Shown here: positions 4,343 through 42,661 of the stretch, piece by piece
Layout: every line of letters starts with the position of its first letter
Position numbering within the stretch: position 1 is the stretch's first letter
DNA from: Sphingobacterium sp. LZ7M1
GTDB lineage: Bacteria > Bacteroidota > Bacteroidia > Sphingobacteriales > Sphingobacteriaceae
Assembly (NCBI RefSeq): GCF_024296865.1
Contig: NZ_CP101134.1
Location: 4,402,001-4,466,000, forward strand
Reading direction: 5' to 3'
Length of the DNA: 64,000 nt
Made by a program: the position numbers and the translations under genes
The notes under the pieces: model-generated
The model's input: the letters and a program-made list of their open reading frames with translations, nothing else
Told to the model about the DNA's origin: nothing
Database searches by the model: none

Positions 4343-4439
4343 AGATGGATTCGTATTAGGTGATTTTGTAATGGCTTAGGTTAAATATAGACAATCCATT
4401 TGAAACAGGATGACAGGATAATATCCTGACCCATTGAAA

Positions 4440-4934
4440 TTATGTAGCAGCACTCAGATAGGATATATAATAATTCATGCAATGCAACATGGTCATTAGC
4501 AGTAAATCTCTATTCCTTAATTGATCAAAGCTTGCAGACGTTTCTATATCATAGTTAAAGTTGAGGGTTAGCCATTTGAAATCTGTACTCGCTACCGATA
4601 ATTCTTGATCAGACTCGTCTATTAGAATAAACTTACTATTAATAAAACCTTGCAACTTTAACAGATACTGCCTTTCTTGATTATCAAAATAGGTCTTGAT
4701 CACGATTCCCTTCCAACCCATCTTAAAGTCCAATAAGGTCTGAGATCCATCAATTAATTCAACTTTCGAATCCCAAAAACCTTTTGTGATAAGCTGATAA
4801 TTCTTGCCATCAGACATAATTAAATCAGCATCAAAGGAATACCATTTCTTGATTAGCAATTCGCCTATTTCTTGGTTTTCAAGAGTCACCTTAAAATTGC
4901 GGGAATTTGTAGAGTTTGCCTTGTAGAGTGCCAT
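4440..4934 (-). CDS. hypothetical protein, LURP/tubby-like beta-rich fold suspected
   Basis: This 164-aa protein has no signal peptide. It is rich in alternating strands with repeated polar-hydrophobic turns (LENQEIGELLIKKWY, LITKGFWDSKVELID, DFKMGWKGIVIKTYF), which resembles the single-domain LURP-one/tubby-like beta-barrel proteins found in Bacteroidota; that likeness is my inference. The ATG at 4934 is followed by a normal reading frame and an AT-rich leader. There is no operon partner: the xylanase starts about 100 nt away on the same strand, but a gap with no close coupling separates them. Function unknown. Confidence 0.65.
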   Translation of the reverse strand: MALYKANSTNSRNFKVTLENQEIGELLIKKWYSFDADLIMSDGKNYQLITKGFWDSKVELIDGSQTLLDFKMGWKGIVIKTYFDNQERQYLLKLQGFINSKFILIDESDQELSVASTDFKWLTLNFNYDIETSASFDQLRNRDLLLMTMLHCMNYYISYLSAAT

Positions 4935-5091
4935 GGGTGTTGGATGAGTGTTTATAGATTACTATAAACAATTTACAAATTTACCCCAAATTCAAGAAAT
5001 CTGAATGTTCTTATGTTTTCAGTAATTGATTAAAGGTGCTAATAAGGTAATCAATGATTACTTGGCGTAAATCGTACTGAATAGGGCTACT

Positions 5092-5280
5092 ATGTCTTTA
5101 GCAAGCAACATGCGAATTCGAGCTACGTTTATAATCAGAATCGCTATTTTTACAATGGAAAAAACTCCAAGAGGGGTTACAAGAGGACCACATGCGTTTG
5201 GTGGTACCTATATTCAAGAAGGAAAGTATTCTTATGCAATTAGGTTATATGACCAAGAGGTCGGACGTTCTAATTGTTAG
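5092..5280 (+). CDS. small ORF, doubtful
   Basis: A 62-codon frame that could encode a short basic N-terminal segment followed by a more ordinary stretch (GGTYIQEGKYSYAIRLYDQE) that looks like a beta-hairpin from a larger secreted protein. I do not recognise a family. It may be the tail of a decayed gene rather than an active small protein. The 160 nt after it hold nothing that I can name. Confidence 0.25.
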   Translation: MSLASNMRIRATFIIRIAIFTMEKTPRGVTRGPHAFGGTYIQEGKYSYAIRLYDQEVGRSNC

Positions 5281-5448
5281 CCTCTTAGTATTTTTTATTG
5301 AATGGACGGGGCAGGAAACGCAGACCCTTCGTGAAGAATCATAAAGTCTAGTACAAATCAGAGGCTTTATTTTAACAGCAAACGTGTTTCTAATTATAAG
5401 AGATAGGGCAGAAAAATTTCACCTTTCACATAATAAAAAGTATTGAAT

Positions 5449-5967
5449 ATGATTAAAACGTTTCTTTTTGTAATACTGGTAGTGTTCTTTAATTTTTATA
5501 CAACATTCGGACAGACCAGTGTTATCTCTAAGGTCTCTTCAAAAATCACAGAGAAACAATTGAGAAAAAAAATAATAGAGAAAAAAAATGGCATATCTTT
5601 TTATGAGAATATTCGTAACAAGGTTATTGCTAAGGATAGCTTGAATTTTATCGGCTCATGCGATACCATTTTTTTTCTTGAAACATACGCCATAGAAACT
5701 GGTATTTCCTACGGTAGGATTTGGAGTAGCAGAAAGGCTATTTCATATGAGTACTTTAAGGATGAGTTAACTTTTAGGGAAATCTCTTTTTTTGATGTTG
5801 AGACATTAAAGTTAGTACAAACATGGGATATCAATAGCATACGTAAGTACGAGTCTAAATATTCTACAATGATATCCCCACTTACTATTTACGCATCAAG
5901 AGTTATATTGAATAAAGGGAAGATCGGTGTCGAATGTGTAAAATTTGACGAGATTTTTATACGTTAA
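5449..5967 (+). CDS. secreted hypothetical protein
   Basis: A 172-aa protein starting at the ATG at 5449; an in-frame TTG two codons earlier is a poorer choice. It has a clear signal peptide (MIKTFLFVILVVFFNFYTTFG, cleavage before Q). The mature part is lysine-rich, then has aromatic strands (ISFYENI, FFLETYAIETGISYGRIW). Two cysteines are present, one at SCDTIFF. There is no known domain. It stands alone, at the right edge of what I read as host chromosome, before the att-like region at 6.2-6.5 kb. Confidence 0.6.
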   Translation: MIKTFLFVILVVFFNFYTTFGQTSVISKVSSKITEKQLRKKIIEKKNGISFYENIRNKVIAKDSLNFIGSCDTIFFLETYAIETGISYGRIWSSRKAISYEYFKDELTFREISFFDVETLKLVQTWDINSIRKYESKYSTMISPLTIYASRVILNKGKIGVECVKFDEIFIR

Positions 5968-6197
5968 TATTACAATAAACTGAATCGATAAACTATTTGG
6001 CCAAATCTTTTACTGGATTGGGCTTTTTTTATTACGCATAAGCTTATCCAGGCTTGCATTGTTGATATTGGAAAGGAAAAGAAAAAGCTGGTTGAAACGC
6101 GAGCATGGAAAGCATGAGATCCTTAATTTTAAATTCCTTTTCCTTTCACTTTGGTGCTTACGTTTGCCATAATCATTTCAGCACCAAGCAAACCTTT

Positions 6198-6219
6198 GTG
6201 CCGTATTTGTGACGGTTTT
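6198..6219 (+). repeat. partial att-arm repeat (copy E)
   Basis: This 22-bp stretch (GTGCCGTATTTGTGACGGTT plus TT) matches the distal end of the larger arm repeats A-C with one change (GTGCCG for GTGACG). It lies left of the orphan tRNA half, so it may be debris of an older insertion or chance retention. The surrounding 5968-6312 stretch has no gene. Confidence 0.45.
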
Positions 6220-6311
6220 CCGTGAAGTTCAACAATAAACTATGAAAACACACCGTTTTAAGGGTTTACAAAACGGGAAAAGAGGAAGTTCCAAACCGCC
6301 CTAAGAAAAGC

Positions 6312-6349
6312 AAAAAAGCCGTTTTACGCAAAGTAAAAACGGCTTTTTT
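6312..6349 (-). terminator. rho-independent terminator of the tRNA remnant
   Basis: A GC-containing stem built on AAGCCGTTTTAC and its near-complement GTAAAAACGGCTT, with a short loop and A/T tracts on both sides. It lies 5 nt downstream of the tRNA-Lys 3' end on the minus strand, exactly where a tRNA terminator belongs. It may work in both directions. Confidence 0.75.
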
Positions 6350-6354
6350 GAAAG

Positions 6355-6400
6355 TGACCCCGCTGAGGCTCGAACTCAGGACCCACAGATTAAGAGTCTA
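6355..6400 (-). tRNA. orphan 3' half of tRNA-Lys(CTT)
   Basis: On the minus strand the sequence runs from the anticodon loop CTCTTAA (anticodon CTT), through the 3' anticodon-stem strand TCTGT, the variable loop GGGTC, the T arm (CTGAG-TTCGAGC-CTCAG), the acceptor strand CGGGGTC and discriminator A. CCA is not encoded. The D arm and 5' acceptor strand are missing: to the right of the anticodon the sequence is arm repeat A. This is the classic remnant left when an element integrates into a tRNA gene and rebuilds the intact gene at its other end, so the fragment is not expected to be functional. Confidence 0.85.
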
Positions 6401-6515
6401 AAGGTCTACGATCGACAACAAGGTTAAAATTGTTCATTTCCTGCTTGCTAGAGCAATATATGAACATTTTTCCAATATTCAAAAATAAGGGCTGTGACGT
6501 ATTTGTGACGGTTTT
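6379..6515 (+). repeat. att-like arm repeat, copy A (with Lys anticodon core)
   Basis: This begins in the tRNA-Lys remnant (GGACCCACAGATTAAGAGTC) and continues AACAAGG..., CATTTCCTGCTTGCTAGAGC, ATGAAC, and ends with the doubled GTGACG-tattt-GTGACGG motif. Copies B (37617), C (43837) and D (44317) follow the same order in the same orientation. The pattern (tRNA anticodon-loop core plus an arm with short direct repeats) fits a tyrosine-recombinase attachment site; that function is inferred, not shown. Confidence 0.7.
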
Positions 6516-15434: not shown

Positions 15435-17207
15435 ATGTATTACAGCAATGGAAATTATGAAGCATTTGCAAATCCCAAAAAACCCGCAAATGTAGACCAA
15501 AAATCAGCGTATCTGATTGGTTCAGGATTGGCATCTCTTTCTGCTGCGGCTTTTATGATCCGCGACGGGCAGATGAACGGCAGTAAGATTCATATTTTAG
15601 AAGAACTGGCACTTCCAGGCGGCAGTATGGACGGTATCCTGGATGAACAAAAGGGATATATCATTCGCGGCGGCCGTGAGATGGAAGTCCATTTCGAAAC
15701 CTTGTGGGATCTTTTCCGCAGTATCCCTTCCCTTGATACCGAAGGAGCATCTGTACTGGACGAATTTTACTGGCTGAACAAAGAAGACCCTTCCTTCTCT
15801 CATACAAGGGTGATCGTCGATAAAGGAGAACGTCTCTCTACCGATGGACTGCTTACCTTGACACCAAAAGCCATACAGGAATTAATAAAACTGGTTTTGA
15901 TTCCCGAAGAAAAATTGCAGGATTTGCGGATAGACCAGGTATTCACCGAAGATTTCTTCAATTCCAACTTTTGGTTATACTGGGCAACGATGTTCGCTTT
16001 CGAACCCTGGGCCAGTGCATTGGAGATGCGCCGCTATGTGTTGCGTTTCATACCTCACGTAGGCAAAATTGCCGATATGTCTTCGCTTCGTTTTACCAAG
16101 TACAACCAGTACGAGTCGTTGATTCTACCGCTTGTCAATTATCTTAAAGAACAGGGGGTTGATTTTCAATACAATACCCAGGTTCAAAATATTATAGTTG
16201 ATACAAAAGACCATAAGAAAGTAGCACAGCGTATAGAATTGATTCAGGACGGTCAAGAAAAGCAAATCCAATTAACAGAAAATGATTTGGTATTTGTAAC
16301 GAATGGCTCCATCACGGAAAGCACCACTTATGGCGATAACAATACGCCGGCTCCCGTAACGTCAGATATCGGTGGCAGCTGGAAGCTTTGGAAAAAGCTG
16401 GCACGACAAGATGCCAGTTTCGGAAAACCAGAGAAATTCTGCGAAAATATTCCAGAAGCCAACTGGGTCATTTCCGGAACCATTACGTTGACGGACGATA
16501 AAGTATTGCCTTATATTGAAAAAATCACGAAAAAAGACCCGAAGAGTGGCAGTATTGTAACCAGCGGGCCTGTAACCATCAAAGATTCCAGCTGGTTATA
16601 TGGTTTTTCCATCAGCCGCCAGCCCCACTTTAAAAAACAGAAAGACAATGAGGTGATTGTTTGGGTGTATGGATTGTTCTCCGATAAGCCCGGTGATTAT
16701 GTCAAGAAAAAAATAACCGAATGTTCCGGAGCCGAATTGTGCGAGGAGTTATTATATCATATCGGTGTTCCCGAAAGTGAAATCGCAGCTATTGCCCAAA
16801 ATTCGGCTAATACCATCCCTTGTCGTATGCCCTATATTACTTCTTATTTTATGCCTCGTGCATTGGGCGACCGTCCTTTGGTCGTTCCGGAAGGTTCGGT
16901 CAACCTCGCGTTTATCGGCAATTTTGCTGAGACTGAAAAAGATACGGTATTTACGACAGAATATTCCGTACGTACAGCAATGGAAGCGGTTTATACGTTG
17001 TTAGATGTAGACCGGGGCGTTCCTGAAGTTTTTGCTTCCTCTTTCGACATCAGGGTTCTATTAGAATCCATTTATTTTCTGAATGATAAAAAGAACCTCA
17101 AAGAACTGGATCTTCCCTGGCTTTTATCCATTGTAGAAAAATATGGGCTTAAAAAAATTGAAGGAACATACGCTGAAGAAATATTGCGTGAAGCAAAGCT
17201 TTTGTAA
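15435..17207 (+). CDS. ohyA: oleate hydratase, classical active site
   Basis: A 590-aa FAD-dependent fatty acid hydratase that adds water to the cis-9 double bond of oleate-type acids to give 10-hydroxy acids. Residues 26-40 hold the FAD-binding pattern [25 protein letters not shown] follows at 79-88, with Glu82 at the place of the catalytic Glu of the Elizabethkingia enzyme. The [10 protein letters not shown] segment holds the conserved Tyr. Near the C-terminus [15 protein letters not shown] and [20 protein letters not shown] are present. Length is normal. It follows the AraC gene and precedes a second hydratase after a terminator. Confidence 0.95.
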
Positions 17208-17243
17208 CCAACCAATTCCGGCAACCGAGTACAATAATTTTTC

Positions 17244-17258
17244 AACCGGCTGCCGGTT
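17244..17258 (+). terminator. short GC hairpin between the two hydratase genes
   Basis: AACCGGC-t-GCCGGTT followed by TTCAATTTTTA. It would partly separate transcription of the two oleate hydratase genes. Confidence 0.55.
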
Positions 17259-17327
17259 TTCAATTTTTATATAATTATAAAATACAACTAGGAAATACTT
17301 GTTGTTGATCTAAAATTTATTAAAAAT

Positions 17328-18923
17328 ATGAGCACAAACAATTCAGAAAAACACGCCTATTTCGTCGGAGGCGGATTGGCCAGCCTGGCAGGAGCCGTTT
17401 ATCTATTGGAAGACGGTGGATTCAAAGGAGAAAACATCCACATTATAGAAGCCTTGCCCATTTTGGGCGGAAGCAACGACGGGGCAGGCAGCAAGGAAAA
17501 AGGCTTCATCTGCCGTGGCGGAAGGATGCTAAACGAAGAAACTTACGAGAATTTCTGGGATCTTTCCAGCCGCATTCCCTCTCTGGAAGTTCCTAATATT
17601 TCTGTTAAGGATGAAATATTGGCTTTCGACCACGCCAATCCTACGAATGCCCAAGCCCGTCTGATTGATAAGGACGGTAATAGATTGCCCGTTACCGATA
17701 TGCAGTTCGATACCAAGGATCGTATGAAAATGGTAAAGCTGTTTTTTACCGATGAAGATGAACTGGATAATGTAACGATCCGCGATTGGTTCGATGACCA
17801 TTTCTTCACCACCAATTTCTGGTATATGTGGCAGACCACCTTCGCCTGGCAGGAATGGAGCAGCATCTTCGAATTTCAACGCTATATGAAAAGGATGCTG
17901 TTGGAATTTTCCCGTATAAATACATTGGAAGGCGTGACTAGAACGCCCTATAACCAATATGAATCGGTCATTTTACCCATCAAAAAATACCTGGACAAAT
18001 ACAATGTGGACTTTTCACTTCGTAAAACGGTTACAGACCTTCATTTTAAGGACAACGATAACATCACCGTTTCTGAAGTAGAATGTGTCAATGCTGAAGG
18101 AAATACGGAAATAATTGCCGTAAACGAAGATGATTTGGTCTTCTTTACGAATGGATGTATCACCGATAATTCCAACAATGGCGATTATAAAACGCCTGCC
18201 AGATATTTACCCGGCAATCCGCCAAGTTTTGCCCTATGGCGCAAAATAGCAGATAAGAAACCGGGAAGATTGGGCAATCCCGATCCTTTCTTTACCAAAC
18301 CGGACGAAACCAAATGGTATTCTTTCACGCCGACCTTCAAGGGCAACAAGATGCTGAAGCTCATTGAGGAATATTCCGGAAATAAACCAGGAAGCGGAGC
18401 CCTGATGACTTTCAAGGACTCTTCGTGGCGGATGTCCATCGTTGTGGCGGCACAACCGCATTTCAAGGCACAAGGTGATGATACCACCATACTTTGGGGT
18501 TATGGATTATACCCTGATGCTATCGGCGATTTTGTCAAAAAACCGATGATAGACTGTACAGGCGAAGAATTGCTCACTGAATTAATTCACCACCTGCATT
18601 TTGAGCAGCACGAAGCCGACATCAAGGAAAGCGTCATCAACGTTATCCCTTGTATGATGCCTTATATCGATGCCCTTTTCCAGCCGAGAGCCAAGGCCGA
18701 TCGCCCTGCCGTGGTACCTGAAGGTTCTACCAATCTCGCCCTGATCAGCCAGTTCGTGGAAATACCGGAAGATATGGTGTTTACCGAAGAGTATTCCGTT
18801 CGCGCGGCAAGGTGGGCAGTATATACGTTGCTTGGATTGGACAAAAAAGTAGCACCTGTAACCGAATACTGGAAACGACCTGATGTATTGGCTAAAGCCA
18901 TTCATACTTCGTACAGATCATAA
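17328..18923 (+). CDS. oleate hydratase paralogue with altered active-site motif
   Basis: A 531-aa protein of the same family as its upstream neighbour: FVGGGLASLAGAVYLLEDGG at ~12-31 for FAD, PYNQYESVILP in the middle and IPCMMPYIDALFQPRAKADR near the end. The key GGRE motif reads GGRMLNEETYENFW (Met67 where the neighbour has Glu82). A Met in this place is known from hydratases of a different subfamily (such as the monomeric Rhodococcus type), so it may still be active with a different mechanism or substrate range. It is 60 aa shorter than the first copy. The start at 17328 is 13 nt before an in-frame SEKHAYF segment. Confidence 0.9.
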   Translation: MSTNNSEKHAYFVGGGLASLAGAVYLLEDGGFKGENIHIIEALPILGGSNDGAGSKEKGFICRGGRMLNEETYENFWDLSSRIPSLEVPNISVKDEILAFDHANPTNAQARLIDKDGNRLPVTDMQFDTKDRMKMVKLFFTDEDELDNVTIRDWFDDHFFTTNFWYMWQTTFAWQEWSSIFEFQRYMKRMLLEFSRINTLEGVTRTPYNQYESVILPIKKYLDKYNVDFSLRKTVTDLHFKDNDNITVSEVECVNAEGNTEIIAVNEDDLVFFTNGCITDNSNNGDYKTPARYLPGNPPSFALWRKIADKKPGRLGNPDPFFTKPDETKWYSFTPTFKGNKMLKLIEEYSGNKPGSGALMTFKDSSWRMSIVVAAQPHFKAQGDDTTILWGYGLYPDAIGDFVKKPMIDCTGEELLTELIHHLHFEQHEADIKESVINVIPCMMPYIDALFQPRAKADRPAVVPEGSTNLALISQFVEIPEDMVFTEEYSVRAARWAVYTLLGLDKKVAPVTEYWKRPDVLAKAIHTSYRS

Positions 18924-20309: not shown

Positions 20310-20573
20310 ATGAAAGGGAAACGATTCAAACCGGAGCAGATCAGTAAGATCTTAAAAGAATTTGAAGCAGGCAAAAGTGTTCAGGAGCTCACACGGGAAT
20401 ACGGGGTGAGTTCAGCCACGTTTTATAAATGGCGTCAGCGGTATGGGGGTATGGAGAGCAGTGAACTGAAGCGGATGAAGGAGCTGGAGGAAGAGAACCG
20501 GAAGCTGAAGCGTATGTATGCTGATCTGGCATTAGACCTGGAGGCGGCAAAGGAGGTGATAAAAAAGCTTTGA
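20310..20573 (+). CDS. IS3-family transposase OrfA
   Basis: An 87-aa DNA-binding subunit: helix-turn-helix in [18 protein letters not shown] ... [20 protein letters not shown], then a coiled coil with leucine/hydrophobic heptads ([20 protein letters not shown]). It ends IKKL at a TGA. It overlaps OrfB by 4 nt, and the OrfAB fusion would be made by -1 frameshifting at 20561-20567. Confidence 0.9.
20561..20567 (+). promoter_or_regulatory. programmed -1 frameshift site of IS3-family element
   Basis: A_AAA_AAG is placed in the OrfA frame (codons AAA at 20562 and AAG at 20565), four codons' distance or less before the OrfA stop at 20571. Shifting back one base joins OrfA to OrfB through Ala-Leu-Lys-Pro. 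This heptamer is the standard IS3-family slippery sequence. Confidence 0.85.
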
Positions 20574-21532
20574 AGCCCTGCCAGCGCAGACAGGTTGCTC
20601 AGGAATTGGTGGATTTGGGCAAAGGCATCAGCAGGGCGTGCCGCACAGTGGGATTGAGCAAGACCTGTTATTATTATGTATCGGATCGCGATGATAGTGA
20701 GGTGGAGAAAGCCTTGCGCATCAAGGCCGAACAGTTCCCCCGGGAGGGTTTCTGGAAAGCCTACGGCCGCTTGCGCCGGGAAGGTCATTTATGGAACCAT
20801 AAGCGGGTACACCGCGTTTATAAGCTGATCGGGCTGAATATCCGCAGGAAAATGAAAAGACGTCTGCCCCAGCGAGTAAAACAACCATGGATCATTCCGC
20901 TCTCGGCCAACGACACCTGGAGCATGGATTTTATGAGTGACGCGCTCAGCAATGGGCGCAAATTCCGTTCCTTCAATGTGATGGACGATTTCAACAGGGA
21001 GGCGCTGCATATCGAGGTGGATTATTCCATGCGCAGCTCACGGGTGGTGTGGGTGCTGAACCACCTGATCAAACGTAGGGGAAAACCCAAGAAAATCTGG
21101 ATGGATAACGGTCCGGAGTTTATTTCACAGATATTGACCGAATGGAGCCAGGTTAATGGTATCGAGTTTCTGTACATCCAGCCAGGAAGGCCTATGCAGA
21201 ACGGACTGGTGGAAAGATTGAACGGTACTTACCGCGATCATGTGCTGGACAGCTACCTTTTCGACACGATAGACGAAGTCAGGGAAGTGACATGGAAATG
21301 GATGGACGATTACAATAATTACCGACCCCATGATAGTCTCGGTGATCTTGCTCCTGTAGAGTATGCCGCTTCCACGATTGCCTACAATCACTTATTAAAG
21401 AACGGGGATAAATACAAAGTACAGCCAAAATTTTATGTGATAAATTTTGACGACCCTCGCAAGAGCCACCGTTGCAACCCACTCAATCCCGACTTTATGA
21501 CCTACATCAGCGACGCCTATGAAGCAGCATAA
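20570..21532 (+). CDS. IS3 OrfB transposase fused to coupling-protein fragment
   Basis: A 320-codon frame. Residues 1 to about 268 are an IS3 OrfB integrase core with DDE residues in [19 protein letters not shown] and [12 protein letters not shown]. After [12 protein letters not shown] the sequence changes to IAYNHLLKN, then [20 protein letters not shown], which is the interior of a TraG/MobC-type coupling protein. The frame ends at TAA 21530, and coupling-protein sequence continues in the same frame beyond it. Catalytic residues are intact, but the C-terminus is foreign. Confidence 0.85.
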
Positions 21533-22651
21533 ACCATAATGTTAAACCTCAACAGGTCGTGGATACAGAAGCAAGGAGATTTCTTCGTGGAAAGCCCGAT
21601 TATTCTATTAGCAGCTATTATTTGGTATTTAAAAATCTATGATAACGGAAAGTATTGTACCTTTCCACACGGCATTGAGTTACTGAATAAAAAGTACGCA
21701 GACGTATTTACGATTTTAACTTCTTATCCTGATTTAGAGAACTATTTATCTCCCTTTATGGATGCTTGGCAGGGAGGCGCACAAGACCAATTACAGGGAC
21801 AGATTGCATCAGCTAAAATACCTTTGTCAAGAATGATTAGCCCACAGTTGTATTGGGTAATGACAGGCGATGATTTTTCATTAGACATAAATAACCCACG
21901 TGAGCCTAAAATCCTTTGTGTAGGAAACAACCCCGACAGGCAAAATATTTATTCGGCGGCTTTGGGTTTGTACAATTCCCGAATTGTCAAACTCATTAAT
22001 AAAAAAGGACAATTAAAGAGTTCTGTCATTATAGACGAGTTACCGACAATTTATTTTAGAGGCTTGGACAATCTTATTGCAACGGCGAGAAGTAATAAGG
22101 TAGCGGTTTGCTTAGGCTTTCAGGATTTTTCCCAATTAATTCGTGACTATGGAGATAAGGAAGCTAAGGTAATTCAGAACACGGTCGGTAATATTTTTAG
22201 CGGTCAGGTCGTGGGCGAAACGGCAAAGAGCCTGTCAGAACGCTTTGGGAAAGTATTACAGAAACGCCAAAGTATGACGATTAACCGAAATGACAAATCA
22301 ACTTCAATTTCTACCCAATTAGACAGTCTTATTCCAGCTTCAAAAATCAGTACACTTACACAAGGTATGTTTGTCGGTTCAGTGTCCGATAACTTTGACG
22401 AACGTATAGAACAAAAGATATTTCACGCAGAAATTGTAGTAGATAACGAGAAAGTTGCTGCCGAAACAAAAGCGTACCAGAAGATACCGGAAATTTTATC
22501 CTTTGTCGATGAAAGCGGAGAAGATAATATGAAACGGGATATTGAGAACAATTATCGTCAGATAAAATTAGACATTGTTCATATCGTGGAAAGTGAAATG
22601 GAGCGTATAAAGAACGACCCGAATTTACAGCATTTGATACAGGAGGGATAA
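21373..22651 (+). pseudogene. type IV coupling protein (TraG/MobC-like), 5' truncated with one nonsense codon
   Basis: The remnant starts in frame inside OrfB (IAYNHLLKN...), meets TAA at 21530-21532 where other members have a Tyr codon, and continues MLNLNRSWIQKQGDFFVESP, DAWQGGAQDQLQGQIASAKI, SSVIIDELPTIYF (Walker B) and FSQLIRDYGDKEAKVIQNTV. The N-terminal membrane region and Walker A are gone. A protein could restart at the ATG at 21539 (370 aa), but without Walker A it cannot be an active ATPase. It belongs to a different coupling-protein type from the intact one at 54907, so it comes from another conjugative element. Confidence 0.85.
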
Positions 22652-22738
22652 TATTGAATTTTTAAATCATTTATTTTGAAATATTTTAAATTACAGCGTC
22701 TTATAAAAGAGAGCAGACTTTTTTATTAACTTTGTTAA

Positions 22739-23134
22739 GTGAAAAAAATGTTTTCAATATTATTATTGTCTGTGTATTTAATTTCGACAACTGAATTAGG
22801 TCAGTTATTGAAGTTTCCTATACTTATAGAGCATTATTTCGATCACAAAGAAAAAAATCCGGAGGTTACTGTTTTGCAATTTTTGGAAGTTCATTACGCC
22901 GGGAGCCATCTGGAAAACCATCCACACGATGACGATTATGAACAAGACAAACAATTACCGTTTATCGTACATATCGATGTTTTGAATATCAGTTTTGTAC
23001 TTGTCCCCCCTTTTAGTTTTGATATAGAAACCAAAAAACTTGTAGGCAAAGAACCCAAAACCTTGCCTTTGGACGATACATTTTCTGATAACAATTACCG
23101 TTCTGCCATCTGGCAACCTCCGAAATTCTGTTAA
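22739..23134 (+). CDS. small His-containing protein preceding metal-efflux genes
   Basis: 131 aa if the GTG at 22739 is used, 128 aa from the ATG at 22748. It starts with a hydrophobic signal/anchor (MFSILLLSVYLISTTELGQL), followed by LLKFPILIEHYFDHKEKN and a His/Asp-rich patch (HPHDDDYEQD). I recognise this type as an uncharacterised Bacteroidota protein found before cusA/czcA genes. The acidic, His-rich part suggests metal binding outside the inner membrane, by inference. It is the first gene of the metal-resistance operon. Confidence 0.7.
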   Translation: MKKMFSILLLSVYLISTTELGQLLKFPILIEHYFDHKEKNPEVTVLQFLEVHYAGSHLENHPHDDDYEQDKQLPFIVHIDVLNISFVLVPPFSFDIETKKLVGKEPKTLPLDDTFSDNNYRSAIWQPPKFC

Positions 23135-23294
23135 TCTTTTTTGATTTCCACGATGAATCCTTTCATCGTGCATTTGCTGTTTGATAATACTTTCATTCGG
23201 GCAGTCGGTGTATTTTGTGTCCGCCTGTAGGATTGATCATGTATTGGAAACGTCAAATCTCTTTATTTATCATTTACGATTAACAGAATAAATT

Positions 23295-26200
23295 ATGCTT
23301 ACAAAAATCATTGAGTTTTCTGTAAAGAACAAACTCATTATAGCATTATTGGTTCTTGGTTTAATCGGCATTGGCTCTTATCAGGTAAGCAAATTACCGA
23401 TTGATGCTGTGCCGGACATTACCAATAATCAGGTGCAGGTTATTACAATCGCTCCGTCTTTTGGGGCAACCGATATCGAACGTCTGGTTACTTTCCCAAT
23501 TGAACAGGCGAACTCCAATATTTCCGGACTCAAAGAAATCCGCAGTTTCTCCCGTTTCGGATTGTCCTTGGTTACCATTGTTTTTGATGATGGTATTGAT
23601 GTGTATTGGGCAAGACAACAAGTGGCAGAGCGGCTGCAACAGGTTCAGAATGAAATTCCGCAAGGTATCGGAACACCGCAATTAGGGCCGATTTCTACCG
23701 GTTTGGGCGAAATCTATCAATATGTCGTTCGTCCTAAAGAAGGTTTTGAACAAAAATACGACGTTACGGAACTCCGTACCATTCAGGATTGGATTGTGCG
23801 TCGACAGCTACTTCAGGTCAAAGGCGTAGCGGAAGTCAGCAGTTTTGGCGGTAAATTGAAGCAATACGAGATTGCCGTGAATCCCGACCGACTTAATGCT
23901 TACGGCATTACCATCAATGATGTTTTTGATGCACTGAATGCCAATAACCAGAACACCGGCGGTGCTTATATCGAAAAAGGGCCAACCGTTCTCTACATTC
24001 GGAGCGAAGGTTTGGTGGGCAATATTGAGGATATTCAAAACATTTCCATTACCAATAAAAACAACGATGTACCGCTGTTTATCCAAGATGTAGCTGATGT
24101 CAAAATTGGTTTTGCCACCCGTTACGGAGCGATGACTTACAACGATCAGGGCGAAGTTTCGGGTGCGGTGGTGATGATGCTGAAAGGTGCCAACAGTAGT
24201 CAGGTCATCAGAGATGTAAAAGCCAAAGTGGCTCAAATCCAGAAAACCCTGCCCGAAGGCGTGGTGATAGAACCCTTTCTTGACCGTACCAAAATGGTGA
24301 ATAATGCCATCAGCACGGTAGAGAGAAACCTTATGGAAGGTGCTTTAATCGTGGTATTTGTCCTCGTTTTATTTCTCGGAAATTTCAGAGCCGGCTTACT
24401 CGTGGCTTCGGTGATTCCACTAGCAATGCTTTTTGCCATTTGTATGATGAACCTTTTCGGGGTGAGCGGCAATCTGATGAGTTTGGGTGCACTGGATTTT
24501 GGATTAATCATCGACGGAGCGGTCATTATTGTAGAAGCCGTCCTGCATCAGTTATCCCTCAATCCTAAGTTCAAGAGCCTGCTGAAAATTCCGTCCAATG
24601 ATATGGATAGTGTAGTTACAGAATCTGCCGGAAGAATGATGAACAGTGCAGTTTTCGGACAAATTATCATCTTCATTGTGTACATTCCGATCCTAACATT
24701 GCAGGGGATTGAAGGGAAAATGTTCCGCCCGATGGCAGAAACGGTGGCGTTTGCATTATTAGGTGCATTTCTGCTTTCCCTAACCTACATTCCGATGATG
24801 AGTTCGGTTTTGTTGAAGAAAAGAAGTTTAAAACCTTCGTGGTCGGACAGGGTAATGAAGAAAGTAGAAGCGCTTTATTTGAAAACCTTGCTGAAAGTTT
24901 TACGCATTCCGAAAACCATTTTTACCATAATCGGGATATTGTTCATCACGGCAATAATTCTGCTAAGCAGAATGGGCGGCGAATTTATTCCGTCTTTGGA
25001 AGAAGGTGATTTTGCGGTGGATACCCGCGTTTTACCGGGCAGCAACCTTACCACCACGATTGAAAGTACGCAAAAAGCAGCCCATATCTTAAAAACCCGT
25101 TTCCCCGAAGTGGAAAAAGTGGTCACCAAGATAGGAAGTGGAGAAGTGCCTACCGATCCGATGCCAATGGATGCTTCGGATATGATGGTCATTCTGAAAG
25201 ACAAAAAAGAATGGACTTCCGCCAAAACGTTTTCCGAATTATCAGAAAAAATGAGCAAAGCACTGGAAGATGTGCCCGGTATTACAGTTGGTTTTCAGTA
25301 TCCGGTAGCGATGCGTTTTAATGAACTGATGACTGGTGCAAGACAGGATGTGGTCATCAAAATCTTTGGCGATAATCTGGATTCTTTGGTGCAAAATGCC
25401 AACCAACTCGGTAAAATCATTGAAACGGTAAAAGGTACACAAAACCTTTATATAGAACCGGTTTCCGGGCTTCCGCAGGTGGTGGTAAAATACAATCGTC
25501 CCGTGATTGCTCAGTATCATCTTTCTGTTGCAGATGTCAATCGGGTGATTAATACCGCATTTGCCGGACAGAGTACAGGTTTGGTTTTTGAAGGCGAAAA
25601 ACGCTTTGATATGGTAGTACGCCTGAATGCCAGTGACCGAAAAAACATCAATGATATTCAAAATCTATTGGTTCCAACACCTGCAGGCAATCAGATCCCG
25701 CTCAATCAGCTGGCAACCGTAGATGTGGTGGAAGGTCCCAATCAAATTCAACGTGAAAATGCACAACGCCGTATTGTCGTCGGCTTCAACATCAAAGACC
25801 GTGATGTGCAAAGCATTGTGGAAGAATTGCAGGGTAAAGTGGACAAACAGATTAAACTTCCGGCCGGCTATTCTATTACGTATGGCGGTTCTTTTGAAAA
25901 TCTGAACAACGCCAAACAACGGTTGATGATTGCCGTTCCGCTGGCATTGGCATTGATATTTGTCCTGTTGTTTATGGCGTTCAAGTCGATTAAAGAAAGT
26001 CTTCTGATTTACACCGCCATTCCGTTGTCGGTCATCGGAGGTGTATTTATGTTGAATTTACGCGGAATGCCTTTCAGCATCAGTGCTGCCGTTGGTTTTA
26101 TCGCTCTTTTTGGCGTAGCGGTTTTGAACGGTATTGTATTGATTTCAGAATTTAACCGACTGCATAAAAACGGCATTAGAAATATCGTCAGAATTGTGAT

Positions 26201-27635
26201 TGATGGCGGCGAAAGCCGATTGCGTCCGGTATTGATGACCGCAGCCGTTGCCTCCCTCGGCTTTATCCCGATGGCAATAAGCACAGGTGCTGGAGCAGAA
26301 GTGCAGCGACCTTTGGCGACCGTGGTAATTGGCGGACTGATATTGGCCACTTTGCTCACCCTTTTTGTCCTACCGCTTTTATATGTCAATATCGAAAATG
26401 GATTTAAAATGAAAAAACCAAAATCCAAACATGTCGCCTCTGTTCTGTTGATTTTTATGCTGTTTTCAGGAATAAAAATGAAGGCACAAACCATAATTTC
26501 TTTAGATGAAGCCGTGCAAACAGCGTTGCAAAACAATCGCAACCTGAAAAATGAAAAACTGCGTTCGGATTATGCCAAAGCATTGATTAAAACTTCTAAT
26601 GCCGATATTCCGCAAACCGCAGTTACAGCAGATTACGGACAAATAAATAGTGCATACAACGATATGAAATTCGGGATTTCACAGAGCATCGCTTTTCCAA
26701 CTGTGTATCAGAAACAGAAAAATTTGCATTCCGAAGAATGGAAAAAAAGCCAGTTGAATGTTTCGCTTAAAGAATTTGAACTGAAAAAAGCCGTCAGCCA
26801 AAGTTATTTCCAGATAGTGTATTGGAAAGATAAGGAAAAATTGCTGAATGAAACGTTGCAACTGTACACCCAATTTTTAGACAAAGCCAGTTTGCGTTTA
26901 AAAGCTGGAGAAAGCAATATTCTGGAAAAAACAACGGCTTCCAACCAAAAATCGGCGATTGAGATTCAGTTGAAACAAGTGCAGCAGGAAATAAAAACCT
27001 TGCAGTTGCAGTTCAGTTGGTTGCTCAATTCCGAAACGGAATATCTTCCTTTGGAAAATTCCAGACCGGTTCTTTTGCTTCAGGAAAATGCTTCGCATCC
27101 CTTGTTACATGTATTGGAACAGCAAAAAACGGTTGCCGGCAAACAAACCGAAGTGGAAAAATCCAGACTTCTTCCGGGTTTGCAAATCGGTTATAATCTC
27201 AATTCGTTCAAAGGTATGGGACCTGATGATAAACTGTATTCTGCTACACCACAGTTTCATTCGGTGATGGTAGGTGTTGGCATTCCAATATTTTCAGGCG
27301 GACAAAAGGCAAGAATTCACGCTTCTAAAGTGGCGGAAAGCATTGCGGAAAACGATTGGCATAATACGGAATTTGCATTAGAGAAAAAACAGAAACAGCT
27401 CAAGCAAATGTATCAAACGAATCTCGAAATCATCAACCGTTACGAAACTGATGAACTGAAAAATGCAGACATCATTACCAAAACAGCACAGCAACAATTC
27501 ATTAACGGAGAAATCAATTATCTGGAATTTGTAATGCTCGTCAATCAGGCAGTTTTGCTCAAAAGCAATTATGCAGATGCCCTATTGAAACTAAACGAAA
27601 GCGTGGTTGAACTGAATTATATCACGATTCAGTAG
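23295..27635 (+). CDS. CusA/CzcA heavy-metal RND pump fused to TolC-like outer-membrane domain
   Basis: A 1446-aa fusion. Residues 1 to about 1037 are a heavy-metal RND transporter: N-terminal TM with KLPIDAVPDITNNQVQV, the periplasmic porter domain, and TM4 with the proton-relay aspartates (GALDFGLIIDGAVIIVEAV). The second TM bundle follows near MAFKSIKESLLIYTAIPLS. From about residue 1038 a new signal-like stretch (VASVLLIFMLFSGIKMKA) leads into a TolC/CzcC-type domain (ISLDEAVQTALQNNRNLKNE; heptad helices; FINGEINYLEFVMLVNQAV). The fused layout is recurrent in Bacteroidota. It exports Cu/Ag, Co/Zn/Cd or similar ions with the adaptor downstream; which ion is not evident. Confidence 0.9.
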   Translation: MLTKIIEFSVKNKLIIALLVLGLIGIGSYQVSKLPIDAVPDITNNQVQVITIAPSFGATDIERLVTFPIEQANSNISGLKEIRSFSRFGLSLVTIVFDDGIDVYWARQQVAERLQQVQNEIPQGIGTPQLGPISTGLGEIYQYVVRPKEGFEQKYDVTELRTIQDWIVRRQLLQVKGVAEVSSFGGKLKQYEIAVNPDRLNAYGITINDVFDALNANNQNTGGAYIEKGPTVLYIRSEGLVGNIEDIQNISITNKNNDVPLFIQDVADVKIGFATRYGAMTYNDQGEVSGAVVMMLKGANSSQVIRDVKAKVAQIQKTLPEGVVIEPFLDRTKMVNNAISTVERNLMEGALIVVFVLVLFLGNFRAGLLVASVIPLAMLFAICMMNLFGVSGNLMSLGALDFGLIIDGAVIIVEAVLHQLSLNPKFKSLLKIPSNDMDSVVTESAGRMMNSAVFGQIIIFIVYIPILTLQGIEGKMFRPMAETVAFALLGAFLLSLTYIPMMSSVLLKKRSLKPSWSDRVMKKVEALYLKTLLKVLRIPKTIFTIIGILFITAIILLSRMGGEFIPSLEEGDFAVDTRVLPGSNLTTTIESTQKAAHILKTRFPEVEKVVTKIGSGEVPTDPMPMDASDMMVILKDKKEWTSAKTFSELSEKMSKALEDVPGITVGFQYPVAMRFNELMTGARQDVVIKIFGDNLDSLVQNANQLGKIIETVKGTQNLYIEPVSGLPQVVVKYNRPVIAQYHLSVADVNRVINTAFAGQSTGLVFEGEKRFDMVVRLNASDRKNINDIQNLLVPTPAGNQIPLNQLATVDVVEGPNQIQRENAQRRIVVGFNIKDRDVQSIVEELQGKVDKQIKLPAGYSITYGGSFENLNNAKQRLMIAVPLALALIFVLLFMAFKSIKESLLIYTAIPLSVIGGVFMLNLRGMPFSISAAVGFIALFGVAVLNGIVLISEFNRLHKNGIRNIVRIVIDGGESRLRPVLMTAAVASLGFIPMAISTGAGAEVQRPLATVVIGGLILATLLTLFVLPLLYVNIENGFKMKKPKSKHVASVLLIFMLFSGIKMKAQTIISLDEAVQTALQNNRNLKNEKLRSDYAKALIKTSNADIPQTAVTADYGQINSAYNDMKFGISQSIAFPTVYQKQKNLHSEEWKKSQLNVSLKEFELKKAVSQSYFQIVYWKDKEKLLNETLQLYTQFLDKASLRLKAGESNILEKTTASNQKSAIEIQLKQVQQEIKTLQLQFSWLLNSETEYLPLENSRPVLLLQENASHPLLHVLEQQKTVAGKQTEVEKSRLLPGLQIGYNLNSFKGMGPDDKLYSATPQFHSVMVGVGIPIFSGGQKARIHASKVAESIAENDWHNTEFALEKKQKQLKQMYQTNLEIINRYETDELKNADIITKTAQQQFINGEINYLEFVMLVNQAVLLKSNYADALLKLNESVVELNYITIQ

Positions 27636-27701
27636 TTGATGAACAGGATATTTTAAACAGTAAACAGAATTTTTCAAATCAATATATAATTAGACAAGAA
27701 A

Positions 27702-28859
27702 ATGAAAATATTAAAATTATACGGTTCTTATTTTTTGGTCTTGATAGTACTGCTTTCCGCAGTTCAATGTCAACAAAAACAAGAAACCACCGCCACCAAA
27801 ACTGCAAATCCGAAAGACGAAAACACGGTTATTTTCACCGATGCACAGTTACACAATACCCCCATTGAAACCGCGGAACTGTCGATGCAGCATATTTCCA
27901 CCGTATTGAAACTCAACGGTAAAATTGATGTACCACCGCAAAATCTGGTTTCCGTAAGTACACCGCTGGGCGGCTATCTGAAAAGCACCCGCCTTTTGCC
28001 AGGGATGAAAGTAGTTAAAGGTCAGGTAATTGCCGTTATTGAAAATCCGCAGTTTGTACAGTTGCAGCAGGATTATCTGATGGCAAAATCCAAATACCAC
28101 TTTGCCCAACTGGATTATAACCGACAAACTAAGCTCAACCAAAGCCAGGCAAGTAGTGATAAAGTGATGCAGCAGGCACAATCCATTATGAGCGATCAGA
28201 AAATTCTGATGAATTCCATTGCCCAGCAACTGAAGTTGGTCAACATAAATCCGGCTAAGATATCTGCCGGAAATATTCAGCAGAGCGTACCTGTCTATAG
28301 TACCATCAACGGTTTTGTGAGCAAGGTGAATGTGAATGTAGGCAAATATGTAACGTCTTCGGATGTGCTGTTTAAACTCATCAATCCTTCTGATATTCAC
28401 CTCAATTTAAAAGTGTATGAAAAGGATTTGGAAATGCTGAAAACCGGGCAACAGATTGTGGCTTATACCAATGTAGATCCTTCAAAAAAATATGCCGGTG
28501 AAATTTTGCTGACGAGTAAAGACGTGGACGGAAGCGGCATGGCTGAGGTTAATTGTCATTTTGAAAAATACGATCCTGCACTCATTCCCGGAATGTATAT
28601 GAATGCCGAAGTGAAAACAGAAAATTCTTTTGCCAATGCTATTCCGGAAGAAAGCGTGGTGGATTTTGAAGGGAAAAGTTATGTCTTTACAGAAACCGGG
28701 AAACAGACCTGGAAGATGGTCCCGGTCACATTGGGAATTTCCGAAAATGGCTTTGTTGAAATCCTCAACTTTGCTGATTTTCAAGGTAAGAAAATCGTGG
28801 TCAAAAACGCCTATACCATATTGATGAAGTTGAAAAATACCAGTGAAGATGAAGATTAA
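27702..28859 (+). CDS. efflux RND periplasmic adaptor (CusB/CzcB-like lipoprotein)
   Basis: A 385-aa protein with lipobox LLSAVQC (Cys about residue 23). Adaptor features are LNGKIDVPPQNLVSVSTPLG (barrel-sandwich start), PGMKVVKGQVIAVIENPQFV (lipoyl half), a helical hairpin (QQDYLMAKSKYHFAQLDYNR), YSTINGFVSKVNVNVGKYV (second lipoyl half) and a C-terminal beta barrel. It lacks the N-terminal Met metal motif of E. coli CusB. It bridges the RND pump and the TolC-like part in the periplasm. Spacing to the pump is 66 nt. Confidence 0.9.
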   Translation: MKILKLYGSYFLVLIVLLSAVQCQQKQETTATKTANPKDENTVIFTDAQLHNTPIETAELSMQHISTVLKLNGKIDVPPQNLVSVSTPLGGYLKSTRLLPGMKVVKGQVIAVIENPQFVQLQQDYLMAKSKYHFAQLDYNRQTKLNQSQASSDKVMQQAQSIMSDQKILMNSIAQQLKLVNINPAKISAGNIQQSVPVYSTINGFVSKVNVNVGKYVTSSDVLFKLINPSDIHLNLKVYEKDLEMLKTGQQIVAYTNVDPSKKYAGEILLTSKDVDGSGMAEVNCHFEKYDPALIPGMYMNAEVKTENSFANAIPEESVVDFEGKSYVFTETGKQTWKMVPVTLGISENGFVEILNFADFQGKKIVVKNAYTILMKLKNTSEDED

Positions 28860-28894
28860 TAGTCAGATAAAATCTCATATAAATATTTAAAAAA

Positions 28895-29368
28895 ATGGAA
28901 ATTATAAAAACAATCATTCCCCTATTACTGATTTTGCTGATTGGCATCCAGTTCTTTGGGGTAACGCCCAATACTTCTGCAATAGTGCCTGAAAGTGCCA
29001 TAGAAAACCATTACAGCATTCCCTCAAATGTGCAGCAAATCCTGAAAACCAGTTGTTACGACTGCCATTCCAATAACACGGTTTATCCATCTTACAACAA
29101 GTTGCAACCCATCAAATGGTGGCTGGCAGAACATATCGCGGATGGAAAAAAACATCTGAATTTTGATGAATTTAATGCATATGCTACAGATCAGAAATTA
29201 CGTAAGCTGGCTGAGATTGAGGAAACCGTAAATGCAGGAGAAATGCCATTGAAAAGTTATACCCTTATCCATAACAATGCAAAATTGTCGGATGAGCAGA
29301 AGCAGCAACTCCGGGATTGGGTCATTGCCACAAAAAAGGTAATCAATCGTAAAGCTATTAACCGATGA
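28895..29368 (+). CDS. haem-binding domain protein (single CxxCH)
   Basis: A 157-aa protein with an N-terminal membrane anchor (IIPLLLILLIGIQFFGV) and one c-type haem motif in TSCYDCHSNNT, then YPSYNKLQPIKWWLAEHIAD and ending near LRDWVIATKKV. The order and length match the Haem_bd family of Bacteroidota. It likely sits on the periplasmic side of the inner membrane. Its location between the adaptor and PAP2 genes, with a 4-nt overlap to the latter, puts it in the metal operon. A redox role in metal handling is inferred. Confidence 0.85.
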   Translation: MEIIKTIIPLLLILLIGIQFFGVTPNTSAIVPESAIENHYSIPSNVQQILKTSCYDCHSNNTVYPSYNKLQPIKWWLAEHIADGKKHLNFDEFNAYATDQKLRKLAEIEETVNAGEMPLKSYTLIHNNAKLSDEQKQQLRDWVIATKKVINRKAINR

Positions 29369-30126
29369 AGAGGGTTATTGTATTAATCCTGTTGTGCTTA
29401 TCCCAATGGAGTGTGGCTCAAAGTGGGTTGCAGAACATTGCCCAAAAGCCGGCATCAGATTCTGTATCGGTATATCAATTCAAATATAAAAAGCTGATAG
29501 TACCATCTGTTTTTATTGGATATGGAATCCTAAGTCTGACTTCTGATGACCTGAAACAGCTGAACCGTTCCACCCAATATGAAATTGGGGAGCATCAGCC
29601 GGATAAAATAAAACTGGATAATTATACCCAATACGTACCTGCAATATTGGTTTATGGATTAAATGCTATTGGACTTAAAGGAAAACATAATTTGAAAGAC
29701 CGAAGTATTATTTTAGGCACATCGTTGCTGATTTCAAGTGCTGTCGTATTACCTACCAAGCATTTGGTGAGAGAAGAACGACCAGATGGTTCTAATAATT
29801 TGTCGTTTCCTTCGGGACATACTACAACTGCTTTTACAACAGCACATTTTATGTTCCGTGAATATCAGGATGAAAATATTTGGTTAAGTTTGTCTGGTTA
29901 TCCAATTGCTGTTTTTACGGGAGTTTATCGCATTTTGAATGATAAACATTGGGTGGGTGATGTGGTTGCAGGTGCCGGTATTGGAATTCTCTCCACAGAA
30001 GTTGCCTATTGGTTGTTCCCAAAAGTCAGTCAATTATTTTCAAAAGATCATAGCAAAAATAGTGCTCTTGTATATCCGTTTTATCAAAATAAAACAATGG
30101 GATTAGGTTTGTCTTTAAACTTTTAA
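29365..30126 (+). CDS. PAP2-superfamily phosphatase
   Basis: A 253-aa protein with signal peptide (VIVLILLCLSQWSVAQ) and the three PAP2 motifs: KHLVREERPDG, SFPSGHTTTAF and RILNDKHWVGDVVAGAG. The His residues of motifs two and three are the catalytic pair. The family removes phosphate from lipids such as phosphatidic acid or undecaprenyl pyrophosphate. It starts inside the stop of the haem gene (ATGA overlap). A role in envelope upkeep during metal stress is a guess; this gene type is a frequent neighbour of RND metal pumps in this phylum. Confidence 0.85.
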   Translation: MKRVIVLILLCLSQWSVAQSGLQNIAQKPASDSVSVYQFKYKKLIVPSVFIGYGILSLTSDDLKQLNRSTQYEIGEHQPDKIKLDNYTQYVPAILVYGLNAIGLKGKHNLKDRSIILGTSLLISSAVVLPTKHLVREERPDGSNNLSFPSGHTTTAFTTAHFMFREYQDENIWLSLSGYPIAVFTGVYRILNDKHWVGDVVAGAGIGILSTEVAYWLFPKVSQLFSKDHSKNSALVYPFYQNKTMGLGLSLNF

Positions 30127-30136
30127 ATTTATAAAA

Positions 30137-31930: not shown

Positions 31931-32370
31931 CCACAACATTTGTTAATTGTCAGGAAAACCTTCAAAGGTCGCTGTTCAAGTAAAATAAAAACGTCCATAA
32001 AGACCGAAGGGCAAAACATCTATTATCTGGGTTACATCAGCGTCGATAATGACCTGTTGAAAGGCATAAAGGGTTGTTAAAAAGAATCGCTTCTAATTAA
32101 GCAATTTTAAAAGGGGATTGTCTCACAAGGACAGCCCCTTTTGTTTTGGTTTAGCGTGCTGTTTTCATAGCCTTACAGTTTTATCGGAATACCACTGTTA
32201 CAAACGGCATCCACTAATCCAAGTATAAAATTCCTACTATCAAATGAGAACTTTTCACAGGTAAAACCCAAGCTGTGAAAGATTTATTTCCATTTCTGTT
32301 TGCCGGATAAATTTTATTCTTTAATTTTACATAACCAATTATGTAAATAGTTATTTAATCCGTTTATGAT
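31931..32370. other. intergenic region with C-terminal gene remnant and terminator
   Basis: From about 31985 to 32080 the + strand reads KTSIKTEGQNIYYLGYISVD, then NDLLKGIKGC and a stop, clearly the end of a lost gene of unknown family. A terminator follows at 32109-32142. Upstream of the thioesterase gene lies A/T-rich promoter-like sequence. Confidence 0.5.
32109..32142 (+). terminator. rho-independent terminator
   Basis: The outer stem AAAAGGGG/CCCCTTTT and inner TGTC/GACA pairs surround a small loop, followed by GTTTTGG. It ends transcription from the metal operon or the remnant gene behind it. Confidence 0.8.
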
Positions 32371-37450: not shown

Positions 37451-37616
37451 ATGTACAGTTTTAAGAATGACTATGCCGAGGGTACACATCCCGATATATT
37501 ACAGAAATTGCTCGAAACCAATCTGGTGCAACATACGGGATATGGTGAGGACGCCTATTGCTCAGAAGCCAAAGAACTTTTAAAAAGTAAGGTGGCAAAC
37601 CCTGATGCCAACGTAA
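37451..37616 (+). pseudogene. threonine aldolase, 3' end lost at arm repeat B
   Basis: The first 55 codons (MYSFKNDYAEGTHPDILQKL, VQHTGYGEDAYCSEAKELLK, PDANV) match the N-terminus of low-specificity L-threonine aldolases, PLP enzymes of ~340 aa that split threonine to glycine and acetaldehyde. At about 37616 the sequence passes into repeat B, and the frame ends 20 codons later (TRSKIFISCLLEQFMNNF). The PLP lysine is absent, so the gene is dead. The break point marks a recombination junction. Confidence 0.85.
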
Positions 37617-37717
37617 CAACAAGGTCAAAAATCTTTATTTCCTGCTTGCTAGAGCAATTTATGAACAATTTTTGACTATTCAAAATTTGTAGCTGTGACG
37701 TATTTGTGACGGTTTTT
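37617..37717 (+). repeat. att-like arm repeat, copy B
   Basis: CAACAAGG..., ATTTCCTGCTTGCTAGAGCA, TTATGAACA and the GTGACG-tattt-GTGACGG end match copy A over ~100 bp with scattered changes. Unlike A, C and D it lacks the tRNA-like core on its left; threonine aldolase sequence abuts it directly. Gene-free sequence continues to 37832. Confidence 0.75.
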
Positions 37718-37832
37718 TTGTTTAATGGATTTATGATTGGGAAAGTCACTTCCTATATTCCTCCATTTTATTCATATAGATGAGCAGAAAGTAATTGGCA
37801 TGCAAATATGTTATTGACCAATAACTTCATTA

Positions 37833-38078
37833 TCAGACAAGGCTTGTTGACAGCCCGACATTATTGTCGTTCTCATGTCTCTGGGCAATGATCCTTGTAT
37901 ACAAATCCTTAAGTAGTCTCAAACGGACAGCGGAAAAGACTTCATATTCTGTTTGGCTCAATTCATCCTTATTCTCTTCCAACAAACGATCAATGGTCCG
38001 AATATCAACTTGTTGATAAATGGATTGAGCCGTGGAAAAATATTCCGTGTTTATCTGCCCAGATCTCACATTACCCAT
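37833..38078 (-). CDS. small protein at the end of the ars operon
   Basis: An 81-aa protein, mostly helical and charged ([40 protein letters not shown]), without cysteines or a signal. It overlaps the acr3 stop by 8 nt, so it is translated with the arsenite exporter. No family recognised; it is the distal gene of the operon. Confidence 0.5.
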
Positions 38079-39102: not shown

Positions 39103-39108
39103 ACTATT

Positions 39109-39600: not shown

Positions 39601-39601
39601 T

Positions 39602-40213: not shown

Positions 40214-40228
40214 TTTTATGATTTAAAA

Positions 40229-41002: not shown

Positions 41003-41008
41003 ATTATA

Positions 41009-42070: not shown

Positions 42071-42123
42071 TGATTTAGCTTTAATACATGTTATTTAAAA
42101 GACATCTGACATTCTACAGCGAA

Positions 42124-42597: not shown

Positions 42598-42618
42598 TGT
42601 TTTATATTTATAGTTATA

Positions 42619-42634
42619 ATGCAATATTGCGATA
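42619..42634 (-). promoter_or_regulatory. predicted ArsR operator 2
   Basis: ATGCAATATTGCGATA, with the perfect palindrome GCAATATTGC, shares 14 of 16 positions with the site in front of arsR. It sits just upstream of the DUF6428 start. Confidence 0.65.
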
Positions 42635-42661
42635 AATTCAAGCAAATTTTTTAACAGCACT

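Follow-up and report, generated by a model that had tools for sequence, protein, structure and literature searches.

An orphan tRNA-Lys(CTT) 3′ half in Sphingobacterium sp. LZ7M1 and the elements that appear stacked on both sides of its tRNA gene

What does half of a tRNA gene mark when it stops abruptly against a repeated sequence: the edge of a genomic island, or a seam between elements? The question is raised by a window of 64,000 nucleotides (the whole stretch of DNA analysed) from Sphingobacterium sp. LZ7M1. The window is G000:C1:4402001-4466000, G000 being the window's own genome, a single contig of 4.59 Mb; positions above 64000 are given in window-scale coordinates. The original prediction described an orphan tRNA-Lys 3′ half at 6312-6420, took it for the left boundary of an island left by one element, and expected an intact minus-strand tRNA-Lys(CTT) to the right of the window, near an integrase gene.

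The orphan proved to be real. Bases 6354-6399, read on the minus strand, are the 3′ half of tRNA-Lys(CTT) from the anticodon loop (with a few stem bases) to the acceptor end, and they match 46 nt of the intact gene (102714-102759) without a mismatch. An exact same-strand match of this length is not chance. The similarity takes in the terminator and adjoining DNA (6292-6353, minus strand): 6292-6399 is 95% identical to 102652-102759 over 108 nt (E 1.6e-42, search of G000), and the terminator of the orphan is a perfect 15-bp inverted repeat (6311-6325/6336-6350). When G000 was searched with 6290-6420, that same-strand region was the one strong match besides self, and the next best reached 81% over 42 nt (43837-43878). 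Genome and pattern searches of G000 found no further 3′ half fit to be the original chromosomal one, and ARAGORN called no tRNA within the window or at the orphan junction. The place of the 5′ half is taken, as had been claimed, by repeat A (6400-6515, plus strand), which is the non-integrase end of an int3-type element and has copies at 37616, 43837 and in the relative G029. The extent given to the block held for the tRNA half and failed at both margins: 6400-6420 is element end and not tRNA, and the block common to the intact locus begins not at 6312 but already at 6148.

The intact tRNA gene and the crossover site

The intact tRNA-Lys(CTT) was located by ARAGORN at 102714-102787 on the minus strand, 96.36 kb from the orphan (core to core), and an integrase gene, int3, adjoins it, so that both were found where the original prediction had placed them. 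The int3 gene (101213-102529, minus strand, 438 aa) starts 184 bases from the tRNA and reads away from it; its assignment to the tyrosine integrases rests on PF13102, the phage-integrase SAM-like domain, because the catalytic-domain model PF00589 was not reported for it. Islander looks for an intact tRNA gene and a cognate fragment on the same strand and 2-200 kb apart, a tyrosine integrase gene within the interval, and a fragment that is a tRNA end on the correct side. Here both halves of the pair lie on the minus strand at the distance given, int3 lies between them, and the 3′ fragment is downstream of the tRNA.

A 7-nt core, CTCTTAA (TTAAGAG on the plus strand), lies in the anticodon loop at 6390-6396 (minus strand) and again at 102750 and 116737. 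The bases before CTCTTAA vary in ten 3′ orphans and those after it vary in five 5′ orphans; the part common to them all is the 7-nt anticodon loop, a shared core that is partly a criterion, since the orphan table picked sites with an exact CTCTTAA. The similarity of orphan to tRNA stops at the edges of CTCTTAA, in agreement with the predicted integration in the anticodon loop. With its stem, the 7-bp loop resembles the canonical overlap region as an excerpt of PMC8371274 describes it. When the flanks were joined at the cores, with either or both of the segments removed, ARAGORN called tRNA-Lys(CTT) each time; it called no tRNA at the present outer junctions. In itself, the orphan is an ordinary scar of tRNA-targeted integration.

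The DNA around the orphan 3′ half

To the left of the orphan, 6147-6291 (minus strand) is similar to the intact locus and reads as a decayed int3-side attachment arm with the first codons of an int3-type integrase, belonging to an older element. The match to the int3 arm and integrase start comprises 84 of 98 bases at 6147-6244 and 74 of 85 at 6245-6329, and weaker, gapped similarity runs on leftwards to about 5991. With this remnant on its left, the orphan separates an older from a younger element and is not the island edge. Most likely, its 3′ half and terminator arrived with the older int3-type element, whose integrase has since decayed. The backbone shared with G029 stops at 4397 and resumes at 120497, about 116 kb away, so that 4398-6146, between backbone and remnant, is DNA non-syntenic with G029. 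The remnant and the end of synteny both lie further left, and the claim that the orphan is the left island boundary must be given up.

Among the strains compared, none had the same flanks around a completely empty site, and the nearest relative has left-side insertions of its own. The two left anchors, GH10 and a gene of 1163 aa, were traced in 17 genomes each; G029 is the one genome besides G000 in which both lie close to the tRNA locus. The leftmost 3′ orphan of G029 has a different terminator and may, though this is unproven, be the native 3′ half. Between this orphan and the shared backbone, G029 carries a cluster that reads like carotenoid biosynthesis (G029:C1:4541449-4547102, L043). A further copy lies in G029 at 1931014, the single G000 copy lies at 1847345, and the carotenoid-like stretch of G066 is about 30 kb from GH10 on the GH10-anchor contig, not on the tRNA contig. 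The cluster was considered as a marker of the native 3′ flank of tRNA-Lys and dropped, its positions differing among G029, G066 and G000.

The 96-kb interval from 6.4 to 102.7 kb holds one intact int3 against three repeat-A ends. Besides the end at the orphan, there is one at 37616-37719 (plus strand) that lacks a tRNA core and one at 43837-43975 (plus strand) with the variant core CTCAAAA in place of CTCTTAA; some element ends have thus been lost or changed. The variant core (43837-43858) recurs in G029 (4557005), where it adjoins the same module at the corresponding position. An origin from another tRNA was considered for it and dropped, because a 22-nt pattern with up to 3 mismatches matched, in G000 and G029, only the attachment sites of this locus and tRNA-Lys copies. 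Two modules are common to G029: 22023-32122, an RND efflux module (98-99.7% identical), and 38077-43975, whose genes read as arsenic-type from Pfam matches (95% identical). In G029 they stand in reversed order with a 3′ orphan between them, and this, together with the internal repeat-A ends, indicates that the interval is composite. It is not a tandem array in which every member has its own fragment and integrase, since of the older integrase only a remnant is left.

The one element of the original prediction was therefore too simple a picture, the more so as a second element in opposite orientation lies 5′ of the intact tRNA (see below). A single 96-kb element, integrated once and with the orphan as its true left edge, would explain why the orphan is at one end and the intact tRNA with an integrase at the other. 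It would leave unexplained the decayed int3 arm to the left of the orphan, the end of synteny about 1.9 kb further left than the orphan junction, the repeat-A ends within the interval and the different module order in G029, and we regard it as improbable.

The interval carries conjugation genes: a TraG/TrwB-like coupling protein of 696 aa (54907-56997, minus strand, Pfam), a conjugative transposon TraM protein (59684-60847, minus strand, PF12508), a TraG ATPase and a MobA-type relaxase, plus a ParA-like ATPase. An integrative and conjugative element is expected to have integrase, relaxase, coupling protein and T4SS genes; with the integrase, the first four make the interval a candidate for one. 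Among known systems, the Bacteroidota conjugative transposons come close in TraM, the TraG P-loop ATPase, the coupling protein and the MobA-type relaxase, and differ in the site, here a tRNA-Lys. Elsewhere in the interval, proteins of 46424-50175 match the candidate defence models PDC-S39 and PDC-S32 (the PDC-S32 one with an AbiJ N-terminal domain), and two MCRA-family genes are neighbours at 15435-18923. At 20570-22651, a transposase-type integrase-core gene directly precedes a TraG/TraD-like gene whose product has 370 aa, against 696 aa for the coupling protein above.

The orphan 5′ half and a proposed model for the locus

The stretch 102748-102861, which comprises the tRNA 5′ half and its promoter, recurs with 96.5% identity at 116735-116848, on the same strand as the intact tRNA and 13.99 kb further right. 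Between the two copies lie int5 (102968-104125, plus strand, PF00589), a RadC-domain gene and a gene for a SIR2-domain protein with a sub-threshold STAND-NTPase match. G000 thus shows the arrangement of a 5′-fragment island, with the 5′ fragment upstream on the same strand and an integrase between. The int5-type insertion is missing in G029, where the promoter is followed by backbone after about 25 bases.

The relatives show which 5′ half was displaced. G015, where the int5-type element sits 3′ of the tRNA, has the same sequence before its intact tRNA as G027 and G096 have before their orphan 5′ half; this common upstream sequence looks like a gene end. Before their own intact tRNA, G027 and G096 have different DNA. 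The native upstream sequence has stayed with the orphan, which at the sequence level establishes that another promoter and 5′ half took the place of the native ones, now displaced, in these two genomes. Identity between the two promoter blocks of G096 is no more than 82% over 60 bases, so that the promoter sequence really changed. In G075 they are identical over 150 nt, and in G000 over 60 nt upstream of the tRNA, diverging beyond; for the DNA of G000 itself the direction of donation rests on geometry, and was presumably the same as in G027 and G096. Of the two G000 copies, the one at the intact tRNA matches the G029 promoter block over a longer stretch and a little more closely. Upstream of the intact tRNA of G000, the block 102788-102850 contains TTTG-N19-TACCTTTG, and a TTG-N19/20-TAnnTTTG motif, which we take to be the Bacteroidota promoter type, lies upstream of the intact tRNA in all five genomes (G000, G027, G075, G096 and G062). 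The donated promoter probably drives the tRNA today.

Ordinary segmental duplication or homologous recombination could also leave two 5′ halves, with no part for an int5 element, and the identical promoter blocks of G000 and G075 would suit such an origin. It is very unlikely, given that five genomes share the layout, each with the break at the anticodon loop and an int5 homologue next to the intact tRNA, that the promoter copies of G096 differ as described, and that the native upstream sequence stays with the orphan in G096 and G027.

Further right, a conserved stretch (116105-116447) that lies near the tRNA in four relatives was considered as a small gene and rejected, having no convincing ORF. 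The 3.6 kb of 116849-120497 (L012, L063), missing in G029, hold an AAA-ATPase gene that matches defence models including mad3, AriA and PtuA, with AACTTTTCTGA near both ends of the stretch. Six loci of relatives (L047, L052, L054, L055, L058 and L062) have a tRNA-Arg(CCT) and a tRNA-Tyr some 5-9 kb upstream of their tRNA-Lys(CTT); neither was found in the 18 kb beyond 120001 of G000.

Patterns for the two tRNA halves, with 3 mismatches allowed, were run on 93 genomes of the genus. The 3′ pattern matched in 56 and the 5′ pattern in 70 of them, and the orphan counts are a minimum because genomes with no match may have diverged tRNAs. Unpaired 3′ halves were found in nine (G000, G004, G008, G015, G016, G021, G029, G066 and G073); one further 3′ match (G029 position 261851, 2 mismatches) is outside this count. 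In three of the nine (G008, G021, G073) the unpaired half is on another contig than the intact tRNA. That of G073 (G073:C2:602219-602261, L077) is >300 kb from either end of a contig of 913,634 bases, and is thus not a simple island end. Unpaired 5′ halves were found by pattern in four genomes (G000, G027, G075, G096), to which int5 added G062; these five have the 5′ orphan and int5 together. Extra 5′ matches in G013 (aligning across the whole tRNA), G007 and G030 were left out of the count. Both kinds of orphan were found only in G000. In G030, 1.1 kb separates two complete tRNA-Lys(CTT) genes (L060).

The distance from the orphan to the intact 3′ half is 18,480 bases in G029 and 18,483 in G066, and the 18.48-kb int3 unit between orphan 3′ half and intact tRNA is 99.75-99.8% identical between the two. 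Its flanks are about 72% identical on the right, and on the left no DNA aligns in the stretch compared. A near-identical unit in divergent flanks argues that int3 units bounded by tRNA halves move, and the sequences would be consistent with a recent transfer of such a unit.

A tRNA pseudogene made by duplication and decay, independently of integration, would also be without a 5′ half, but we give this almost no credence in view of the perfectly preserved 3′ half and terminator, the sharp break at the loop, the adjoining element end and the nine genomes with unpaired 3′ halves. Repeat A and the tRNA halves are repeats able to mislead assembly, yet an artefact at repeated ends is hardly credible in a genome of one contig, with the same junction types in other assemblies.

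We hold it highly probable that the orphan is a 3′ half displaced by site-specific integration at tRNA-Lys(CTT), with elements stacked on both sides of the gene. An int3-type element would recombine in the 7-nt anticodon loop. Its int-proximal arm would bring along its own tRNA 3′ half with terminator; the gene would be restored next to int3, and the 3′ half that had been there would end up at the opposite end of the element. The half pushed off at 6399 would itself have come from the older int3-type element that has since decayed. 5′ of the tRNA, an int5-type element would use the same loop, bring a promoter and 5′ half, and push the resident ones to 116735-116848. Sequence and comparison show the halves, the core, the integrases, the remnant and the displacement in two relatives; that int3 and int5 catalyse these steps, and in this order, is inferred. 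Each half of the intact tRNA thus appears to have been replaced by a different element. Several observations count against this model: the missing empty site, the absence from G000 of another 3′ half fit to be the original, the three repeat-A ends to one intact int3, the unpaired 3′ halves that lie on other contigs, the identity of the two G000 promoter blocks and the better match of the G029 block to the copy at the intact tRNA. On balance we favour the fuller reading that the only tRNA-Lys(CTT) found by pattern is a chimera with no native half (3′ half and terminator from an int3 element, promoter and 5′ half from an int5 element), that the int5 lineage switched once within Sphingobacterium from replacing the 3′ half to replacing promoter and 5′ half, while keeping target and orientation, and that expression of a core tRNA gene has in this way passed to a mobile element.

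In part, these arrangements are familiar. tRNA fragments left by integration are widespread (PMC9897764), and of the 3919 islands in the Islander table (PMC4383910) the fragment is from the 3′ end in 3760 and from the 5′ end in 159. The locus is like the Islander-type islands in its intact tDNA, same-strand 3′ fragment, internal integrase and anticodon-centred crossover, and unlike them in that the fragment was most likely itself donated and lies beside a decayed older integrase end. Tandem accretion of ICE, IME and CIME at one att site is well known (PMC5704250); there, too, a single tRNA has successive element ends, not all with an integrase, whereas here both sides of the tRNA are occupied, by elements with two different integrases in opposite orientation. 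Archaeal pTN3-type elements are islands with a displaced 5′ fragment (PMC8371274). As in such islands, the element here supplies a 5′ half and promoter and displaces the native ones; unlike them, it belongs to a bacterial int5 family with 12 of 26 loci beside a 3′ fragment, and it shares its tRNA with a 3′-type island. In bacteria, loss of the original promoter from a rebuilt tRNA is seldom met; with very few exceptions it is kept (PMC8371274, citing Williams 2002). A literature search, covering mostly titles and abstract openings of the best-ranked matches, returned no report of a tRNA gene that owes its two replaced halves to different elements, which is weak evidence that none has been described. 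The two-sided, promoter-replacing arrangement is a rare variant and is more interesting than the orphan. Related integrases that at one tRNA either keep or replace the host promoter offer a natural pair for testing whether an element can take over the expression of a core tRNA, and whether it is then harder to lose. A displaced tRNA half need not mark the border of chromosome and island.

The int5 family

Homologues of int5 (E 1e-60 or better) are present in 14 of the 93 genus genomes. A wider profile scan, run with two peptide patterns, turned up 26 loci, and all of these belong to Sphingobacteriaceae. Upstream of the integrase there is an intact tRNA-Lys in six (among them G027, G062, G075 and G096) and a 3′ tRNA fragment of one of several isotypes in twelve, of which L124 is ambiguous, ARAGORN still calling a tRNA there. 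The upstream DNA is unclear in the other eight, among which L125, L131 and L132 have an intact tRNA-Met on the strand of the integrase, and L116, L127 and L134 begin at or near a contig end. A 3′ fragment is thus the usual neighbour. Both ends were resolved as 3′-replacing in G004, G015, L118 (Thr) and L129 (Phe), and as 5′-replacing in five Sphingobacterium genomes.

The tree has 28 rows, namely 25 of the 26 loci (the partial L134 omitted) with G000, G098 and G002; a partial copy from G009 was not used. The five 5′-replacing rows group together at a support of 89/79 (not starred), next to the 3′-replacing row of G004, and with G004 they are united at 100/100. Counting the 5 rows labelled 5′ and the 13 labelled 3′ (both ends read in 4 of the 13), one change is needed. 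A single switch from 3′ to 5′ replacement in a mainly 3′-replacing family is likely, if not firmly shown. Two Pedobacter loci, L117:9725-9798 and L119:9715-9788, have an intact tRNA-Lys beside an int5 relative; they were not counted as 5′-replacing, there being no 5′ orphan in the stretch examined (the L119 contig ends 1.8 kb past the integrase). Counted as 5′, they raise the changes on the tree to 3, and a tree uniting them with the five Sphingobacterium rows was rejected (p-AU 2.78e-40); they are a possible second origin of the 5′ type. As speculation only, the switch might go back to a faulty excision where tRNA-Lys genes stand in tandem, as they do in G030. In L110 and L111, from two named strains, the int5 genes are nearly identical and the promoter blocks before the intact tRNA are different.
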